Shown here piece by piece: positions 15,845 to 25,964 of a stretch of DNA of 64,000 nt. Each line of letters begins with the position of its first letter. The first letter of the stretch is position 1. Origin of the DNA: Lachnospiraceae bacterium (GTDB taxonomy: Bacteria; Bacillota; Clostridia; Lachnospirales; Lachnospiraceae); contig JAGAMF010000005.1 of the NCBI GenBank assembly GCA_017624855.1, positions 62,001 through 126,000 of the forward strand, given 5' to 3'. Below the pieces are notes generated by a model. That model searched no databases. It was not told where the DNA came from and saw nothing but the letters and a program-made list of their open reading frames with translations. The position numbers and the translations under genes were made by a program.

Positions 15845-17140
15845 ATGAAACTAAATTATAGAAGAACCATTTTGGCCGGCCTTGCTTTTATGGCGATTTA
15901 TTCTTTTTGGCAGACTTATGACAATATCGTACCGTTGATTTTGAAAAACAGCTTTGGTATGAATGAAATCGTAACAGGCGTGGTAATGGCAGCCGATAAT
16001 ATTCTGGCATTGTTTTTATTACCGCTGTTTGGAACCCTGTCGGATAAGGTGGACAGCAAGTGGGGTAAAAGAAAGCCTTTTATCGTAATCGGTACGGCCT
16101 TTACGGTGGTGGCCATTGCGTTTATGCCTATCGGTGACAATACAAGAAACCTTCCTTTATTCTTGATATCAACGGGACTGGTGCTTTTGTTCATGGCATT
16201 CTTCCGTTCGCCCTGCGTGGCGTTAATGCCGGATGTTACACCAAGACCTTTGCGAAGCAAAGGAAATGCCATCATTAATCTGATGGGTACCGTGGGAGCC
16301 ATTTACGGACTGCTTATGATCGGACTTGTGGTAGGTGACGGTAAAACTCCGGATTATACGATGCTTTTTTGGTCCGTGATTATTTTTATGATTATCAGTA
16401 TTCTCGTGCTGATGTTTACCGTAAACGAAAAGAAATGGGGCGAAGAAGCCCGTAAGGCGGAAAAGGAACATCCCGAGCTTATGGAGGATGCCCAAGAAGA
16501 TGAAGCTCCGGCAACCGGCAAAAAGCTTAGTAAGCCTAAGAAAAAGAGTCTTATTTTCTTACTTCTGTCGGTGGCTTTCTGGTATATGGCATATAACGCG
16601 GTAACAAGTGCATTTTCCCGCTATGCAACCCAAGTATGGGAGCTTGAAAACGGAGGTTATGCAGACTGCCTTATGGTGGCAACCGTGGCGGCGGTTATCA
16701 GCTACATCCCTTTAGGATTCCTTGCAAGTAAAATCGGTCGTAAAAAGAGCATTCTCATGGGTATTGTAGGCTTGTTTATCGGCTTTTTATATGTAGGATT
16801 ATTTTTTAAGTATCATTTTATGATTAATTTAGGCTTTATTATAATCGGTGTATGCTGGGGAGCGATTAATGTAAATTCATTCCCCATGGTAGTGGAAATT
16901 GCCAATGACGGTGATGTGGGTAAATATACCGGCTATTATTATGTGTTCTCCATGGCCGCACAGGTGCTTACTCCGGTGCTTTCCGGCGCACTTTTACAGT
17001 GGGTAAGCTATACAACTTTGTTCCCTTATGCCTGTGTATTTTCGGTTTTGGCATTTTTTACCATGATTATGGTAAAACACGGGGATACCAAGCCCATGGC
17101 AAAGAAATCAGTACTTGAAAATTTTGATGTGGATGATTAA
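15845..17140 (+). CDS. Major facilitator transporter, SLC45-like
   Basis: About 431 residues with roughly twelve membrane segments. The first half has the cytoplasmic loop GTLSDKVDSKWGKRKPF, typical of SLC45/sucrose-symporter-like major facilitators, and the second half repeats an ASKIGRKKS loop. A long charged central loop (about 205-240) separates the halves. The start at 15845 uses GGAG 6 bases upstream; ATG 15833 is possible, and longer in-frame starts have no ribosome binding site. The next gene is a surface cellulase, 102 bases downstream without a clear terminator, so a role in importing released oligosaccharides is plausible but not shown. Confidence 0.85.
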   Translation: MKLNYRRTILAGLAFMAIYSFWQTYDNIVPLILKNSFGMNEIVTGVVMAADNILALFLLPLFGTLSDKVDSKWGKRKPFIVIGTAFTVVAIAFMPIGDNTRNLPLFLISTGLVLLFMAFFRSPCVALMPDVTPRPLRSKGNAIINLMGTVGAIYGLLMIGLVVGDGKTPDYTMLFWSVIIFMIISILVLMFTVNEKKWGEEARKAEKEHPELMEDAQEDEAPATGKKLSKPKKKSLIFLLLSVAFWYMAYNAVTSAFSRYATQVWELENGGYADCLMVATVAAVISYIPLGFLASKIGRKKSILMGIVGLFIGFLYVGLFFKYHFMINLGFIIIGVCWGAINVNSFPMVVEIANDGDVGKYTGYYYVFSMAAQVLTPVLSGALLQWVSYTTLFPYACVFSVLAFFTMIMVKHGDTKPMAKKSVLENFDVDD

Positions 17141-17242
17141 TATAGAAGATACAGTATCTGCGGATAATATAAAAGAGATGCCGATAATCCGAAGGCATTT
17201 AAAAATAAATTATTATAAAAGATTGTTTTAAGAGGTTTTGCT

Positions 17243-18901
17243 ATGTTTAAAAATAAAAAGATGTGGTTGGCAGCAGTTTTGTCGGCTATGATGCTGGTAA
17301 TTGCGGCATGTAATAATGTAACCGGCGTAGCCCAGGTGGTTACCGGCAATGACGGAGGAACTTCGGAAACGGTGAGCGAAGAAGAAAGCAATACAGAGGC
17401 AGATTCTGCCGTGACTTCCGAAACGGAATCCGAGGAGATTTCGGAAGAAGTATCAGAGGAAGTAAGCGAGGAAGTATCGGAAGAAGCAACCGCAGAAGAA
17501 GGCACGCCTTTTGAGATGCATGGTGCATTGAAGGTGGACGGAACCAATATTGTGGATGCCAACGGAGAGCCTTTTCAGATTGTGGGTGTAAGTACTCATG
17601 GTTTGGCATGGTTTCCCGATTATGTGAATAAAGATGCGTTTCTCTCCATTCGAGATGATTGGGGTGCCAATACCGTCAGACTTGCCATGTATACCGCAGA
17701 GAACGGCGGCTATTGCGAGGGCGGCAATAAGGACAACTTAAAAGCTCTGGTAAAGAACGGCGTGGATTACGCAACCGAATTGGGCATGTATGTAATCGTA
17801 GACTGGCATATTTTACATGACTTGGATCCCAATAAATATAAAAGCGATGCAATTGCATTCTTCGATGAAATGTCGAAGGAATATAAAGATCAGGATAATG
17901 TCATTTATGAAATCTGTAATGAGCCCAACGGCGGCACAAGTTGGAGTCAGGTAAAAAGCTATGCGCTGGAAGTCATTCCCGTGATTCGCGCCAATGACCC
18001 CAATGCCATTATCATTGTGGGTACCCCTAACTGGTGTCAGTTCGTAGATGATGCGGCCAATGACCCCATTACGGAATACGACAACATTGTTTATGCGGTG
18101 CATTTTTATGCAGAGACTCATCGTGATGATATTCGTAACAGAATGGTGACTGCCATTAACAAAGGTATTCCCGTTATTATTTCTGAATTCAGTATTTGTG
18201 ATGCTTCCGGTAACGGACGCAACAATATCGATCAGGCAAATGTATGGATTGATCTTTTAGACCAGCATAATGTAGGCTTTGTGGCATGGAATTTATCCAA
18301 TAAGGCAGAGTCTTCCTCTCTGATTTCATCCGGTTGCAACAAAAAATCCGGCTGGACTTTTGATGAGTTGTCTGAATCCGGTAAATGGTATGTAGGCGTG
18401 TTGAATGAACATTCTGACCAAGGTGCCGGCATCATGAACGGTCAGGCACCCGTATCGGGAAGCGGCGATTCTTCCGGGAACAACGGAGGAAATAACAATT
18501 CCTCAAATAATAACAGCAATAATAGCAATAACAATAATAGTGGCGGCAATAACCAGCAGACGACTCTTCCTTCCGGAAGCGGTAGCGGCAACAACTTATA
18601 CGCAACCGTAACCGGTGCCAACTCATGGGAAAGCGGCGGCAAGTATTGTACACAGTTAAATGTAAGCATCGAAAACAAAGGTACTTCTTCCGTAAGCGGC
18701 TGGACGGTAGAGATTGATTTGGGGCAGACTGCCACTATCGACCAGATCTGGTGTGCGGTAGGTAAAGTAGAAGGCAATAAGCTTATTATTACCCCGGAAT
18801 CTTTTAACGGAACCGTAGACGGCGGTAAGACCGTTTCCGATATCGGCTTAATTGTAACTACGTCGAGCGCAATCAATTCTACAAGCGTATCGGTAAAATA
18901 G
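17243..18901 (+). CDS. Lipid-anchored GH5 endoglucanase with C-terminal CBM2-like module
   Basis: A surface cellulase of 552 residues. The lipobox VIAAC (Cys23) anchors it to the membrane. A Ser/Glu linker (about 38-88, with repeated SEEV) leads to the GH5 domain (about 92-392). The catalytic acid/base should be Glu227 in EICNEP and the nucleophile Glu315 in IISEFS; HGLAWFP, VDWHI and VHFYAE are further GH5 landmarks. An Asn/Gly/Ser linker (about 405-450) precedes a CBM2-like cellulose-binding module (about 452-552) with Trp461, Trp487-region and Trp503-region aromatics. It follows an SLC45-like transporter. Substrate is inferred as a beta-glucan such as cellulose; xyloglucan or mannan cannot be excluded. 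Confidence 0.92.
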   Translation: MFKNKKMWLAAVLSAMMLVIAACNNVTGVAQVVTGNDGGTSETVSEEESNTEADSAVTSETESEEISEEVSEEVSEEVSEEATAEEGTPFEMHGALKVDGTNIVDANGEPFQIVGVSTHGLAWFPDYVNKDAFLSIRDDWGANTVRLAMYTAENGGYCEGGNKDNLKALVKNGVDYATELGMYVIVDWHILHDLDPNKYKSDAIAFFDEMSKEYKDQDNVIYEICNEPNGGTSWSQVKSYALEVIPVIRANDPNAIIIVGTPNWCQFVDDAANDPITEYDNIVYAVHFYAETHRDDIRNRMVTAINKGIPVIISEFSICDASGNGRNNIDQANVWIDLLDQHNVGFVAWNLSNKAESSSLISSGCNKKSGWTFDELSESGKWYVGVLNEHSDQGAGIMNGQAPVSGSGDSSGNNGGNNNSSNNNSNNSNNNNSGGNNQQTTLPSGSGSGNNLYATVTGANSWESGGKYCTQLNVSIENKGTSSVSGWTVEIDLGQTATIDQIWCAVGKVEGNKLIITPESFNGTVDGGKTVSDIGLIVTTSSAINSTSVSVK

Positions 18902-18936
18902 AAGATGTTATTTTATTAGAAGAATAATGTTAGTGT

Positions 18937-18968
18937 AAGGAGCGGATTTTTTAAATCTGCTCCTTTTT
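18937..18968 (+). terminator. Intrinsic terminator after the GH5 gene
   Basis: AAGGAGCgGATT pairs with AATCtGCTCCTT and is followed by T bases. Together with the mirror terminator at 19456-19491 it encloses the repeat array. Confidence 0.85.
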
Positions 18969-19084
18969 GATTTGAAAGTATTAAAAAATGTTCCGTTGCC
19001 TTCGGTTTGAAAGGTTACATGAAATTAAGTTAAAGGAAATCAGGCTTTTTTATTGTGCGAAAAACTCGAAAATGTAGATTTTAT

Positions 19085-19435
19085 CCTACTAAAAAAGAAA
19101 AAAGCCAATTAAGTAGGAGCGAAAAGGAATCCCCTGCCCTACTAAAAAGGAAAAATGCCACTTAAGTAGGAGCGAAAAGACATCGACTACCCTACTAAAA
19201 AAGAAAAAAGCCACTTAAGTAGGAGCGAAAAGGAATCCCCTGCCCTACTAAAAAAGAAAAAAGCCACTTAAGTAGGAGCGAAAAGGAATCCCCTGCCCTA
19301 CTAAAAAGAGAAAAAGTCGATTAAGTAGGGGCGACAAAGAATCGACTGTCCTACTAAAAAGAGCAAATCCCACTTAAGTAGGACAAAAAAGGAATCCCCT
19401 GCCCTACTAAAAGGAAAAAGAGCCAATTTAGTAGG
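19085..19435. repeat. Seven tandem 53-bp repeats, each with CCTACT-N21-AGTAGG
   Basis: CCTACT begins at 19085, 19138, 19191, 19244, 19297, 19350 and 19403, exactly 53 bases apart each time. In every unit AGTAGG follows 21 bases later, so there are fourteen identical six-base arms in alternating orientation. The 21-base inner part is A-rich on the plus strand and varies; the 20-base outer part is usually AGCGAAAAGGAATCCCCTGC and also varies. Units 3 and 4 are identical. 53 is not a multiple of three and no frame stays open, so it is not coding. 53 bp is close to five helical turns. The array fills the middle of a 638-base gap between convergent genes and is outside both transcription units. 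Confidence 0.95.
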
Positions 19436-19455
19436 ATTGAAAGCATGAAACAAAC

Positions 19456-19491
19456 AATAAAAAATACCTCTCACTTTTAAGTGGGAGGTAT
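19456..19491 (-). terminator. Terminator of the DtxR-type regulator gene
   Basis: ATACCTC at 19464-19470 through 19491 forms a stem of 13 pairs with a two-base loop; on the minus strand it runs into six T bases (19457-19463 on the plus strand are A). Confidence 0.85.
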
Positions 19492-19539
19492 CATTTTATG
19501 AATCTGACTTTTATTTAATGACATAAAGCAAATCAATAA

Positions 19540-19902
19540 TTACGCTTCTATGAATTTCTTAATGGCTTCCATGGATTCGTCGCTGATGACATGTTCCATT
19601 TTGCAGGCATCGTCGGCAGCAGTTTTCTCGTTAACCCCAAGTTTGCGCAGACACTCCGTAAGTATGGTGTGTCGCTCGTATATTTTTTGCGCAATTTCAA
19701 GTCCTTTGGCAGTGAGCGTAATACGACCGTTGGATTCCATCTCAATATAATGGTCTTCTTTTAAGAGTTTCATGGCCCGGCTGACGCTGGGTTTGGAGAA
19801 TCCCATCTCTTCGCATATATCTATGGAGCGTACGAAGTCGCTCTGCTGGGACAATGTATAAATGGTTTCGAGATACATTTCACCGGATTCTAATAAATTC
19901 AT
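19540..19902 (-). CDS. DtxR-family metal-dependent repressor, iron type
   Basis: The 120-residue protein has an N-terminal winged helix (SIDICEEMGFSKPSVSRAMKLL) and the DtxR dimerisation/metal domain, without the SH3-like third domain. Metal-site residues favour iron over manganese: Met9 in ESGEMYLETIY, His78, and Cys100-x-x-Glu103-His104 in ACKMEHV, the same types as DtxR Met10, His79, Cys102, Glu105, His106, whereas MntR has Asp and Glu at the Met and Cys positions. It is transcribed away from feoA-feoB, with two GTTAG-N6-CTAAC palindromes between. It should repress iron uptake when Fe(II) is sufficient. AAAGGGG precedes the start. Confidence 0.9.
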   Translation of the reverse strand: MNLLESGEMYLETIYTLSQQSDFVRSIDICEEMGFSKPSVSRAMKLLKEDHYIEMESNGRITLTAKGLEIAQKIYERHTILTECLRKLGVNEKTAADDACKMEHVISDESMEAIKKFIEA

Positions 19903-20014
19903 AGTTGTAAACCCCTTTACATCTTTGTCTCAGAATATCATAAAAGCAGGGAAAATTCAACCGTACAAGCATGATATGCTTCGTTGCATTATATAATACA
20001 AATAGAACGATGAA

Positions 20015-20034
20015 AAGTTAGCATAAACTAACTT
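20015..20034. promoter_or_regulatory. Operator 1 for the DtxR-type regulator
   Basis: A perfect inverted repeat, AAGTTAG-CATAAA-CTAACTT, with seven-base arms in the gap between the divergent regulator and feoA. The half-site resembles the TTAG/CTAA halves of DtxR-family operators. Confidence 0.75.
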
Positions 20035-20101
20035 AATGGCAGAAATGTTATAAAAACACCATAAAATTACCACATTTTAACATTTTTTTTAAAAAAAGCG
20101 G

Positions 20102-20130
20102 TTTACAAAGGCTGTAAATTATGTTATTAC
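20102..20130 (+). promoter_or_regulatory. Predicted feoA promoter
   Basis: TTTACA at 20102-20107 and TATTAC at 20125-20130 are 17 bases apart. Operator 2 begins 11 bases downstream, around the expected start site, so its occupation would block initiation. Confidence 0.5.
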
Positions 20131-20140
20131 TTTATATGGA

Positions 20141-20156
20141 GTTAGCAAAGACTAAC
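20141..20156. promoter_or_regulatory. Operator 2 for the DtxR-type regulator
   Basis: GTTAG-CAAAGA-CTAAC repeats the half-sites and six-base spacing of operator 1 and lies 20 bases before the feoA start codon. Confidence 0.75.
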
Positions 20157-20175
20157 CAAAATAGGAGTATAAACC

Positions 20176-20409
20176 ATGAATTTGATGGAAGTTGATTTGG
20201 AAAAAGAATATATAGTGGAAGATATAAGTACGGAAGATGAAGAATTGGATGCTTTTCTTTTTTCCTTAGGCTGTTACAGCGGTGAACCCATTACGGTTAT
20301 CTCCCGGAGAAAGCGCAGTTGTGTTGTAGCCATCAAGGACGGAAGGTATAACATTGACAAAGCTTTGGCGGAGGCAATTCGTGTAAACGGCGGTTCGATA
20401 AACGCATAA
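20176..20409 (+). CDS. feoA: FeoA domain protein
   Basis: A 77-residue SH3-like FeoA protein that supports FeoB in ferrous iron uptake. The typical pattern is visible: an N-terminal strand, the LFSLGCYSGEPITVISR turn in place of the usual GxxxGxxI, and a C-terminal strand ending in EAIRVN. AGGAG lies 9 bases upstream of the start. It is first in the feo operon, 28 bases before feoB. Cytoplasmic; iron-regulated through the two palindromes upstream. Confidence 0.92.
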   Translation: MNLMEVDLEKEYIVEDISTEDEELDAFLFSLGCYSGEPITVISRRKRSCVVAIKDGRYNIDKALAEAIRVNGGSINA

Positions 20410-20437
20410 TCAGATTAAGAACAGGAGAAATCTTTTT

Positions 20438-22447
20438 ATGAAAATAGCATTAGCAGGTAATCCAAACAGCGGTAAGACAACCATGTATAACGCACTGACC
20501 GGAAGTAAGGAGCGTGTGGGGAATTGGGCCGGTGTTACCGTGGATAAAAAAGAAAGTGAGATTCGAGCATGTTTTTATGACGGCGAAGAAGAACTGATTG
20601 TTGTGGATCTTCCCGGAGCATATTCCATGTCTCCCTTTACATCGGAAGAAAGTGTTACCAGTGAATATGTAAAAACAGAGAATCCGGATGTGATTATTAA
20701 CATTGTGGATGCCACAAACTTAAGCCGAAGCTTGTTTTTTACAACCCAATTGATGGAACTGGGAATCCCCATGGTGGTTGCTTTGAACAAAAGCGATGTG
20801 AATGATAAAAAGGGAAATGAAATTGATGAAGCAGCTTTGGCAGAGAAGCTGGGATGCGAAGTTTTAGAAACCGTATCTACATCTTCCGGAGAACACAACG
20901 GTCTTGCGGAGGTTGTAAAAGCCGCGGTTAACAGCATCGGTAAAGCCCAGAAAGCACCTTACATACAAGAAGAAATTGACCTAAACGATAAGCAGCAGGT
21001 TATGGAAGCGGATAAAAAGCGCTTTGATTTTGTCAATGGAATTGTGGCCCTTGTGGAAAGGCGCAAGACCAGAACCAATAAAAGAAACAAACAGGATAAG
21101 TTCGATGAGGTAATTACCCATCCGCTTGTTGGAATACCTCTGTTTGCATTGGTTATGTGGCTTGTGTTTTTTATCTCTCAGTCTACCGTAGGTACTTGGA
21201 TTGCGGATTGGCTGGTAAGTTGGATTGAGGTCTTTCAAGAATGGGTAGCGGGACTTGTGGAAGGAGCCAATCCCTTCCTGCAATCTTTGTTGGTTGATGG
21301 TATTATCGGTGGCGTAGGAGCCGTGGTAGGATTCCTTCCGCTGGTAATGGTAATGTATTTTTTAATTGCGTTGCTGGAAGACTGCGGTTATATGGCAAGA
21401 GCAACGGTTGTGTTGGACCCTATTTTTAAGAAAGTGGGACTCTCCGGCAAATCGGTCATTCCCATGGTAATCGGAACCGGTTGTTCCATTCCCGGTGTTA
21501 TGGCCTGCCGCACCATTCGTAATGAAAGGGAAAGAAGAGTTACTGCGATGTTAACACCTTTTATGCCCTGTGGAGCAAAACTTCCCGTTATTGCATTGTT
21601 TGCCGGAGCATTCTTCTCCGACGCAAAGTGGGTTGGCGTGGTAATGTACTTTGTGGGAATTCTCCTCATTCTTGTGGGTGCATTGCTGGTCAACAGAATC
21701 GCCGGACATAAGTTGCGTAAGTCCTTTTTTATCATTGAATTACCCGAATATAAACTTCCGAGTTTAAAGACAGCATTTTTCTCCATGTGTTCCCGTGGAT
21801 GGTCTTACATTGTAAAAGCCGGTACCGTTATTTTGGTTTGTAACGCAGTTGTTCAGATTATGCAGAGCTTCAACTGGCAGTTTCAATTGGTGGAAGAGGG
21901 CATGGAGCAAACATCCATCCTTGCAACCATTGCAACGCCCGTAGCCTACCTACTGGTTCCGGTTGTGGGGATTGCGGCATGGCAGTTGGCAGCGGCAGCA
22001 ATCACAGGATTTATTGCAAAAGAAAATGTTGTTGGTACATTGGCAGTATGCTACGCTTTAACCAATTTTATCGATACGGAAGAGTTGGCCTTAACCGGCG
22101 GTGCAAACGAGGTTGCAACGGTTATGGGTCTTACCAAAGTGGCAGCTCTTGCTTATTTGATGTTTAACCTATATACACCGCCCTGTTTTGCGGCCATAGG
22201 TGCCATGAACTCTGAAATTAAGAATAAAAAATGGCTTTTTGGCGGTATTATGTTACAGTTTGCCACCGGTTTTACGGTTGGATATCTGGTATACCAGATT
22301 GGTACTTTGATTACAACCGGTACCGTAGGAGCCGGATTCTTACCTGGGCTGGTTGCAGTACTTGCAATTGTGGTGGTTATTGTTCTTCTTATTCTTCGCG
22401 GAAACAGAATGATAAAACAGGAGAATGCATTAAAGAAAGCAGCATAG
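20438..22447 (+). CDS. feoB: Ferrous iron transporter FeoB
   Basis: FeoB imports Fe(II) and has a cytosolic G domain fused to a membrane channel. In this 669-residue protein the G domain shows G1 GNPNSGKTT, the switch region VGNWAGVTVDKKE, G3 DLPGAYS and G4 NKSD. The membrane part (about 235-660) has two Gate motifs, one containing GTGCSIPGVMACRTI and one near IAKENVVGTL. It lacks a fused FeoA, which is encoded separately upstream. The start follows an AGGAG. A small Cys-rich partner follows 42 bases later. Confidence 0.97.
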   Translation: MKIALAGNPNSGKTTMYNALTGSKERVGNWAGVTVDKKESEIRACFYDGEEELIVVDLPGAYSMSPFTSEESVTSEYVKTENPDVIINIVDATNLSRSLFFTTQLMELGIPMVVALNKSDVNDKKGNEIDEAALAEKLGCEVLETVSTSSGEHNGLAEVVKAAVNSIGKAQKAPYIQEEIDLNDKQQVMEADKKRFDFVNGIVALVERRKTRTNKRNKQDKFDEVITHPLVGIPLFALVMWLVFFISQSTVGTWIADWLVSWIEVFQEWVAGLVEGANPFLQSLLVDGIIGGVGAVVGFLPLVMVMYFLIALLEDCGYMARATVVLDPIFKKVGLSGKSVIPMVIGTGCSIPGVMACRTIRNERERRVTAMLTPFMPCGAKLPVIALFAGAFFSDAKWVGVVMYFVGILLILVGALLVNRIAGHKLRKSFFIIELPEYKLPSLKTAFFSMCSRGWSYIVKAGTVILVCNAVVQIMQSFNWQFQLVEEGMEQTSILATIATPVAYLLVPVVGIAAWQLAAAAITGFIAKENVVGTLAVCYALTNFIDTEELALTGGANEVATVMGLTKVAALAYLMFNLYTPPCFAAIGAMNSEIKNKKWLFGGIMLQFATGFTVGYLVYQIGTLITTGTVGAGFLPGLVAVLAIVVVIVLLILRGNRMIKQENALKKAA

Positions 22448-24656: not shown

Positions 24657-25964
24657 ATGAAAAAATTTGCGACTATTGCGCTTGCAGTGCTTTGCTGTTT
24701 CACATTAACCGCTTGCGGACCTCTTCAGGCTATTTTACAGAATGTAATGGGCAATGAAGAGGAAGAGTTAAGCATTAACCCCCCTTCAGAAGTGGTATCT
24801 GAAGAACCTTCTGAGTCTGAAGAGCCTTCTGTATCTGAAGAGCCTTCTGAGTCTGAGGAGCCTTCAGAATCCGAAGAACCTTCTGAACCTGTCACACCCC
24901 CTGTTGGAATGCCCACAGAATTATCTGATGATATTTATTCCTTCCAGGTAAAAGTTAACGGTGTGGTTCATCAGTTCCCTATGTGGTTCTCAGACATGGA
25001 ATCATTAGGCTGGAGCTTCGATAGTGACGAAAGCATTGAGCTTTCTGCAAGCCAGTATACATACGGCCAGAAATGGTCAAAAGACGGTATGGAAGTCTCT
25101 TCTGATGTATTCAACCTTACCATGAATGCAGCACCTATTACTGAATGTGCGGTTGCAGGTATGAATTTTGACAGATATACATTAGAAGATGTAAAGTGTG
25201 AAGTTGAATTCCCCAAGGGAATCAAGTTGCGTGAAGCAACCAAGGAAGACATCATTGAAGCATATGGTACACCCAGCAGCGAATATGATGGAGACTTATA
25301 CTGGAAAGCTACTTATGAAGCAGACATCTACTCTACCATTGAATTTTATGTATACAAAGAGAGCGGTGTATTAGAGCAGGCTGACCTTCGTAACATGGTA
25401 GAATTGGAAGGCGGTAACAACGAAGTTTCCGAAGAAGTGCCTCAGGCTGTATTGGATTATGAATTACCTAGTGAATTAAGCGACGACTTGGATGACTACC
25501 AGTTTGAATTAGACGGTGTAGTTTACGGATTACCTTGCCCTGTATCTGTATTTATCGATAACGGATTCGTCCTTGTAGAAGAGAATTCTCAGATGGTATT
25601 CCCGGCAGGAGATGCAGGTTTCATCGAGTTCAGATATGACAACCAGAAGGTAAGATGTTTTGTTAAGAACTATGAAAATTATGCAACAATTCCTCAGAAC
25701 TGCTTCGTTATGGGATTTAAGAGTAGTGAATACGATCCCGAATTGGATATTACTGTACCCGGTGGCATTACATTGGATACCACAGAAGACGAATTGAAGG
25801 AAATCCTGAGTGATTACAACTATGAATCAGAAGTGGGTTCCGTTGATGGTGCAATGTACTACACCGTTGAGAATCCTAACGGTCATGTGAATGACGGCTG
25901 GGAGTTCTACTTAATAGACGGTAATATGGTTTATATCGATATGCAGAATGATGTAGAACCGTAG
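24657..25964 (+). CDS. Lipoprotein with Ser/Glu/Pro linker and two copies of an unknown domain
   Basis: The 435-residue product has lipobox LTAC and a linker of repeated SEEPSE units (about residues 43-78). Two related domains follow, each opening with ELSDD, a short strand ending in NGVVH or DGVVY, and a later W/G-containing strand; they end with similar KATYEADI...EFYVYK and YTVENPNG...EFYLIDG segments. I do not recognise the domain. Start ATG 24657 has AGGAGGAG upstream; the longer frame starts inside the promoter. Codon bias resembles that of gdhA, suggesting strong expression. It is monocistronic with its own promoter and terminator, so it is probably an abundant surface protein. Confidence 0.75.
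   Translation: MKKFATIALAVLCCFTLTACGPLQAILQNVMGNEEEELSINPPSEVVSEEPSESEEPSVSEEPSESEEPSESEEPSEPVTPPVGMPTELSDDIYSFQVKVNGVVHQFPMWFSDMESLGWSFDSDESIELSASQYTYGQKWSKDGMEVSSDVFNLTMNAAPITECAVAGMNFDRYTLEDVKCEVEFPKGIKLREATKEDIIEAYGTPSSEYDGDLYWKATYEADIYSTIEFYVYKESGVLEQADLRNMVELEGGNNEVSEEVPQAVLDYELPSELSDDLDDYQFELDGVVYGLPCPVSVFIDNGFVLVEENSQMVFPAGDAGFIEFRYDNQKVRCFVKNYENYATIPQNCFVMGFKSSEYDPELDITVPGGITLDTTEDELKEILSDYNYESEVGSVDGAMYYTVENPNGHVNDGWEFYLIDGNMVYIDMQNDVEP

Follow-up and report, generated by a model that had tools for sequence, protein, structure and literature searches.

The array and its surroundings

What is the purpose, if any, of seven inverted repeats with identical arms, placed in tandem between two genes? 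This is the question raised by positions 19085-19435 of the window (the whole stretch of 64,000 nucleotides that was analysed, from a Lachnospiraceae genome referred to here as G000). The array consists of seven exact CCTACT-N21-AGTAGG units with a period of exactly 53 bp, and 14 of 14 arms are exact, which confirms what an earlier note on this DNA had claimed; at up to one mismatch the pattern was found 7 times, compared to a mean of 0.04 in 100 dinucleotide-preserving shuffles of the window. Its description of constant arms with variable inner and outer segments also holds, as 0 of 12 arm columns vary between units versus 30 of the 41 others. Arm orientation switches every 27/26 bp, so that the linker between two units is bounded by inverted arms as well.

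17243..18901, + strand: gene that we take to be of the GH5 type (cellulase-like)
18937..18965, + strand: intrinsic terminator 3' of the GH5 gene (terminator scan)
19085..19435, no strand: whole array, with six variable 20-bp linkers between the units
19085..19117, no strand: unit 1, inner palindrome CCTACT-N21-AGTAGG, exact match
19138..19170, no strand: unit 2, exact match
19191..19223, no strand: unit 3, exact match
19244..19276, no strand: unit 4, exact match
19297..19329, no strand: unit 5, exact match
19350..19382, no strand: unit 6, exact match
19403..19435, no strand: unit 7 (last), exact match
19464..19491, - strand: likely dtxR terminator, a one-mismatch stem followed by U's (folding)
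19540..19902, - strand: presumed DtxR-family regulator gene, used as the synteny anchor

The array adjoins dtxR-feoA-feoB. That it lies outside both flanking transcripts, as had been proposed, is likely for the window: the GH5 gene has its terminator, and the stem at 19464-19491, which the terminator scan reports for the + strand only, folds on the minus strand (-16.4 kcal/mol, z -5.5, one mismatch) with a U-run after it, and is therefore likely the dtxR terminator. As a general statement it fails, given that other arrays are found between co-directional genes or, in one case, 28 bp upstream of tatD. A scan of the region gave no promoter-like sites within the array and one terminator-like match (minus strand, 19384-19367), the array region having three such matches against 1.2 expected.

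Recurrence within the genome and across relatives

G000 contains four further arrays, three of the 27/26-bp geometry (which surfaced at up to 3 mismatches) and a weak one of ~63 bp:

Contig C7, 39372-39616: array of 27/26 geometry, presumably between ClpP-like and PadR-like genes (ORF reading)
Contig C11, 25672-25916: array of 27/26 geometry, upstream of what we take to be rpsJ-rplC-rplD (ORF reading)
Contig C12, 164799-164884: short array of two units, 27/26 geometry, between convergent genes (ORF reading)
Contig C2, near 164.4 kb: weak array with 35-bp outer spacing and only three arms exact

Apart from the window array, the arms of the 27/26 arrays are CCGACT/AGTCGG or mixed, exact CCTACT arms being found in G000 in the 53-bp array alone; a loose two-arm pattern is uninformative in this genome (9 matches versus 7 for the control). 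The window array is real and non-random, is one of several in its genome, and is part of a recurrent design.

This design extends to other genomes. A three-arm pattern with wide gaps (21-33 inner and 16-46 outer spacing permitted) has matches in 7 of 397 family genomes, namely G000 (6/7, forward/reverse), G094 (10/9), G422 (14/15) and four with single matches. With CCNACT/AGTNGG at one mismatch, matches occur in 14 of 395 relatives, and the array genomes are G000 (15/15), G094 (29/31), G229 (23/25) and, with a short array, G154 (1/1); in both surveys the reversed-arm control gave at most 2 per genome and column. Scanning contigs with the inner spacing fixed at 27 yielded 46 stretches, many of which have only one match and appear fortuitous, while the longer arrays come (by reading) from Lachnospiraceae or 'Clostridiales' MAGs, many of rumen and deer. 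Arrays of 52 bp also occur in a Bacillus sp. (P14.5, L073:5668-6010) and in Rossellomorea vietnamensis (L084:1132-1580), with related arms and GTG/CAC outward pairs. In 13 whole genomes (G094, G422 and eleven reached via contig-scan loci) CCTACT-N20-22-AGTAGG has 1 to 23 forward matches compared to 0 to 3 for the control, among them G422 with 23, G427 with 20, G428 with 17, and G094 and G429 with 15 each; the count is below the control in G433, G435 and G436, and in G434 it is 4 versus 3. Half-sites and spacing are shared by the arrays of G000, G094, G229, G422, G427, G428, G429 and others; in distant Lachnospiraceae MAGs there are several arrays per genome, whose half-sites are the same but whose interiors differ. 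The suggestion that the array is not a relic is supported by this recurrence in the same and in distant genomes.

Among close relatives the picture is different. Within the genus (31 genomes), an exact-arm array is confined to G000; at up to 3 mismatches isolated matches, one or two per genome, occur in 5 of the 30 congeners (several of them incomplete, 69-100%), which does not exceed the control with its maximum of 4, and with CCNACT arms at one mismatch 0 of the 30 match. Three congeners keep the GH5-dtxR-feoAB order, with 79-81% DNA identity over GH5, and lack the window array at the syntenic place, the gap from GH5 to dtxR being 131, 117 and 160 bp compared to 638 bp in the window. From this comparison, a gain in G000 appears likelier than a loss in all three congeners.

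Geometry and constraint

Each unit forms an imperfect 33-34 bp palindrome with the consensus (XYZ)CCKACT-AAA-N~15-TTT-AGTMGG(Z'Y'X'), in which XYZ and Z'Y'X' vary by genome yet tend to pair, and in which the dyad base is usually A or T in the 53-bp arrays. Arrays are scattered over intergenic sites, with periods of 52-54 (once 50) or 63 bp, the latter in G422 and at one other G000 locus. In 41 parsed arrays or fragments (the parser being limited to 26-28 inner and 23-27 or 34-36 outer), the inner arm spacing of 109 exact pairs is 27 (70) or 28 (39), and the outer spacing of 95 exact pairs is 26 (52), 25 (23), 35 (18), 27 (1) or 23 (1). The 63-bp version (28/35 spacing) is found in L184-L189 of G422, where a GCCACGGCGAAATTA-type linker is common to several arrays and the end units have other, self-complementary arms.

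The earlier note had placed the sites on one face of the helix. The periods do hint at such phasing, but a longer inner segment is not offset by a shorter outer one (Spearman 0.11, p=0.40, 55 triples), and selection on helical phase is thus unsupported. The A-tracts that it described are real in the window array, but by reading they are not a fixed feature of the family, and neither is the curvature expected from them.

Within arrays, the arms change at 0.116 and the rest at 0.377 (lower in 17 of 17 arrays, Wilcoxon p=1.5e-5), in agreement with the proposed conserved arms and drifting interiors, although this conservation is in part ascertained because the arrays were found through exact arms. 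The results for the flanks, the centre and the outward bases are free of that ascertainment. The linker changes at ~0.45 (save for its first base, 0.15) and the inner flanks at ~0.22; in two arrays, L096 and L066, variation is no greater in the interior than in the arms. The base at the dyad centre changes at 0.057 versus 0.365 for the remaining core (p=1.5e-4; 16 arrays, for which a consensus inner length of 21 was also demanded). The 63-bp arrays of G422, by comparison, show little divergence throughout the unit and a flat profile, and in G427 three 54-bp arrays have low values in the arms without a minimum at the centre, which speaks against the generality of the centre constraint. The interiors share a polar consensus, roughly AAAA.GARGAAAA.GC, which amounts to 7.8 bits versus 5.8 +/- 0.21 in all 31 arrays with 21-base interiors (60 shuffles, maximum 6.21), and to 9.02 versus 6.49 +/- 0.27 in a 25-array subset. 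At position 3 the half-site mostly has A or C, and in L240 the two arms disagree there in 8 of 9 units, so that each arm seems acceptable on its own.

It could be argued that the arrays are functionless and result from neutral tandem duplication, with symmetry arising via template switching (quasi-palindrome correction). This would suit their sporadic occurrence, their absence from congeners and their homogenisation per locus, and templated repair could yield symmetric changes at array ends. It leaves unexplained why the same half-site letters, the same inner spacing and a constrained dyad centre recur across arrays and genera, and we consider it very unlikely.

Symmetry and pairing

In 43 arrays from 14 genomes, the rates of pairing for the three positions just outside the arms are 0.77, 0.60 and 0.58, compared to 0.32, 0.22 and 0.26 after between-genome swaps, with 0 of 5000 swaps as high in sum (some of these arrays have one exact unit, L066 and L107 lie at contig ends and may be one array, and L190 is excluded). 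The consensus of the window array itself pairs at 0 of 3 outward positions. The inner flanks AAA/TTT are held, and in the same 43 arrays they show no excess pairing or covariation. Per unit, outward pairing is 0.68, 0.43 and 0.39 across the unit and 0.68, 0.56 and 0.42 across the linker, and pairing can therefore not tell which of the two segments is the palindrome; the inner one is taken as the unit because of its constraint profile and fixed length.

Across the family the arms occur as CCTACT, CCGACT, CCGCCT and CATGCT. At array ends both arms have changed in step in several cases (CCGCCT/AGGCGG in L184 and L185, CATGCT/AGCATG in L084, CCGACT/AGTCGG in L095), against ~1.1 chance matches expected in 4460 end-unit tests; end-unit matches in L190 and L195 seem to reflect chance or the array itself, and those in L105 are runs of N. 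Variants within arrays are mostly one-sided, being compensated in 1 of 84 inner and 3 of 73 outer pairs. What the earlier note had named as refutation, random arms or period in related strains, has a mixed outcome: the arms are not fixed letters, yet in these variants the geometry is retained and, at array ends, often the complementarity as well. Judging from these comparisons, symmetry is favoured and strict pairing not required, which fits a dimer on two half-sites better than an obligatory hairpin, though there may be a hairpin stage.

Transcribed hairpins, acting in mRNA stability, in attenuation or as sponges, would account for the inverted arms and the covarying outward pairs, and a number of arrays do directly precede a gene or separate two co-directional ones. 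Folding of the window array is more stable than that of shuffles on both strands (z -5.8 and -6.6), though this is expected of any inverted-repeat array. The window array, on the other hand, is separated from both neighbouring genes, by the GH5 terminator and the likely dtxR terminator, arrays are also present between divergent genes (L096, L192, L090 and L099), and the arms of L240 are mismatched in all units but one. RNAalifold on the consensus units of 24 arrays gives 6-7 pairs (i.e. the arms) with small covariation terms. Wobble asymmetry, judged by eye, tells nothing here because every transition produces G-U on one of the strands. A known RNA family was rejected, as 4227 Rfam models had 0 matches up to E=1 in positions 17000-21000. 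Overall, a role as RNA seems quite unlikely.

Genomic context and comparison with known repeats

The genes that flank the arrays are ordinary and varied (including tatD and metG, rplJ, yqeY, polyA polymerase and rubrerythrin, topoisomerase IV/gyrase A, polA, release factor 3), and arrays are found between co-directional, convergent and divergent genes. In 60 flank proteins (with the array flanks of G000, G229 and L240 left out) no common neighbour gene or flanking element was seen. A role in partition, one of those suggested earlier, finds no support, as there are several arrays per genome and they adjoin ordinary genes. A phage origin was considered and set aside: three patterns hit 2, 12 and 3 viral stretches, with one match in each.

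Interspersed palindromic repeats are best described in Proteobacteria. GTAG-tagged REPs are short palindromic intergenic repeats, clustered in opposite orientation, with a GTAG/GTMG motif (PMC3733652), and BIMEs likewise have alternating orientation (PMC2817692); in the main text of the GTAG-REP survey 'Firmicutes' has 0 occurrences (PMC3733652). The present arrays appear to resemble BIME/REP or staphylococcal STAR elements in design. As in BIMEs and REPs, they cluster with alternating orientation and have a GTMG core, the GTAG-type tetranucleotide being present as AGTMGG in the arms (with which the arrays were sought). They differ in that the GTMG lies inside the paired arm, in their strict period of 52-54 or 63 bp, and in having some tens of units per genome rather than the >100 of REP; the count, at most 29/31 overlapping matches (two strands) per genome at one mismatch, is a lower bound because degenerate copies and missing genome parts escape.

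It is therefore worth asking whether the arrays are selfish or domesticated DNA whose hairpin ends are processed, single-stranded, by a transposase-like nuclease that recognises the GTMG tag, as for RAYT/TnpAREP. AGTMGG contains GTAG/GTCG, and some GTAG-REP families show this same GTMG degeneracy and opposite-orientation clusters (PMC3733652). Outward letters and some whole arms covary, the arrays are dispersed, and G430, which has a Y1 transposase, also has the only array with a REP-type stem (L089). The REP criterion is a stem of 7+ bp with a loop of 2-5 nt, located 0-2 nt from the tag (PMC6006769). Of 86 half-sites, 84 lack such a stem, and the 2 that have one both belong to L089. The test did recognise a proteobacterial repeat used as positive control (L098:7609-7716), which, like L074:3055-3216, is one of the AGTAGGGGCGGTTCGCGAACCGCCCCTACT repeats of a proteobacterial MAG, which fit the canonical GTAG REP. 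Y1 transposase was found in 4 of 10 array genomes and undetected in G000, G094, G427, G428, G429 and G435, several of which are incomplete MAGs (G000 is 74.5% complete), and transposase/integrase families match 0 of the 60 flank proteins at E 0.001. Membership of the RAYT/REP system was rejected on stem geometry and is weakened further by the undetected transposase; we consider processing of this type unlikely.

STAR elements consist of a short conserved motif with locus-specific spacers of 40-44 bp, are tandem and intergenic, differ in loci per species and are unevenly spread across species, and their function is unknown (PMC3532100). Locus-specific interiors, few copies, tandem growth and loci that differ species by species are shared with the present arrays, but STAR is a GC-rich 14-bp direct repeat, as opposed to AT-rich inverted half-sites with a fixed inner spacing, and its motif TNTGTTGNGGCCC occurs 0 times in the window array and 0 times in 45 array loci. 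BOX of pneumococcus is a further interspersed repeat of a Firmicute (PMC3049150). Outside the units, the five G000 arrays have no flanking sequence in common (short-word BLAST), and a boundary element as in BOX was not found around them. BOX elements have boxB as their tandem module.

The regularity of the arrays, together with a Cas2-like ORF near the L189 array, might suggest CRISPR or a degenerate form of it. Within one array, however, the interiors closely copy one another instead of being unrelated spacers, the arms are inverted, and Cas1 was found in only 1 of 13 array genomes (several of them incomplete MAGs), on which ground CRISPR was rejected; it can be practically discarded. The Cas2-like ORF itself (L189:1568-1873) lies near a Uma2 endonuclease gene and the array, in a genome with Cas1 undetected.

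A proposed reader protein

Among the open-licence literature matches listed, nothing describes this array, and the best reading is that the arrays represent a new family of palindromic recognition sites that are interspersed and have been amplified in tandem, with a postulated reader. More specifically, the window array is a copy of a dispersed repeat family whose inverted half-sites TTTAGTMGG may be read by a dimeric protein, an explanation that we prefer tentatively and hold at slightly below an even chance. One such sequence-reading dimer, from the host or from an element that uses the repeats, would recognise each unit through two half-sites in inverted orientation, tandem duplication would multiply the sites, and selection would retain arms, centre and inner spacing while the linker drifts. 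Occupancy of the array by the reader would then be the function, be it to organise the chromosome, to insulate neighbouring genes from each other or to regulate locally.

This dimer model is supported by the same half-sites and spacing across genomes, with the reversed-arm control at no more than 2 where the arrays reach 6/7, 10/9 and 14/15, by the inner spacing of 27/28, by the low change in arms and dyad together with the shared interior consensus, and by arms that are acceptable singly (L240) with inner flanks held in the absence of covariation. It is weakened by the outward covariation and the in-step arm changes at array ends, which a plain reader of double-stranded half-sites does not need, and by outward pairing that is as strong across the linker as across the unit. 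The unseen centre constraint in 54-bp and 63-bp arrays, the interiors of L096 and L066, the partly ascertained arms and the uncompensated inner and outer lengths weaken it as well.

A wider version of the dimer model, which we find doubtful, is that of a hitherto undescribed system of chromosomal sites in Lachnospiraceae, present in at least 4 genera, in which a dimeric protein would bind inverted TTTAGTMGG at a fixed offset of 27-28 bp, and helically spaced intergenic arrays would act as chromosome-organising or insulating stations. As the same half-sites with one geometry are present in distant Lachnospiraceae, one oligonucleotide could serve to search for a single reader protein, the discovery of which would reveal a new nucleoid, insulator or repeat-mobilising system for these gut bacteria, and show the purpose of such arrays, a question that is also open for STAR elements.

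Other repeats seen

Two GTTAG-N6-CTAAC palindromes, which we take to resemble DtxR-family boxes, are located upstream of feoA (window 20017-20032 and 20141-20156), and by reading similar ones precede feoA in L115, L116 and L117. An array of G094 (L190:2873-2958) lies between feoA and a CarD-like gene, the two iron-locus neighbours seen being probably chance. In G097, CCTACT is repeated every 66-69 bp more than 20 times (L023:1296-3056), which is probably a CRISPR array with the hexamer within its repeat. Finally, an 18/36-bp tandem repeat at window 24795-24891 probably codes for a Ser/Glu/Pro-rich stretch.
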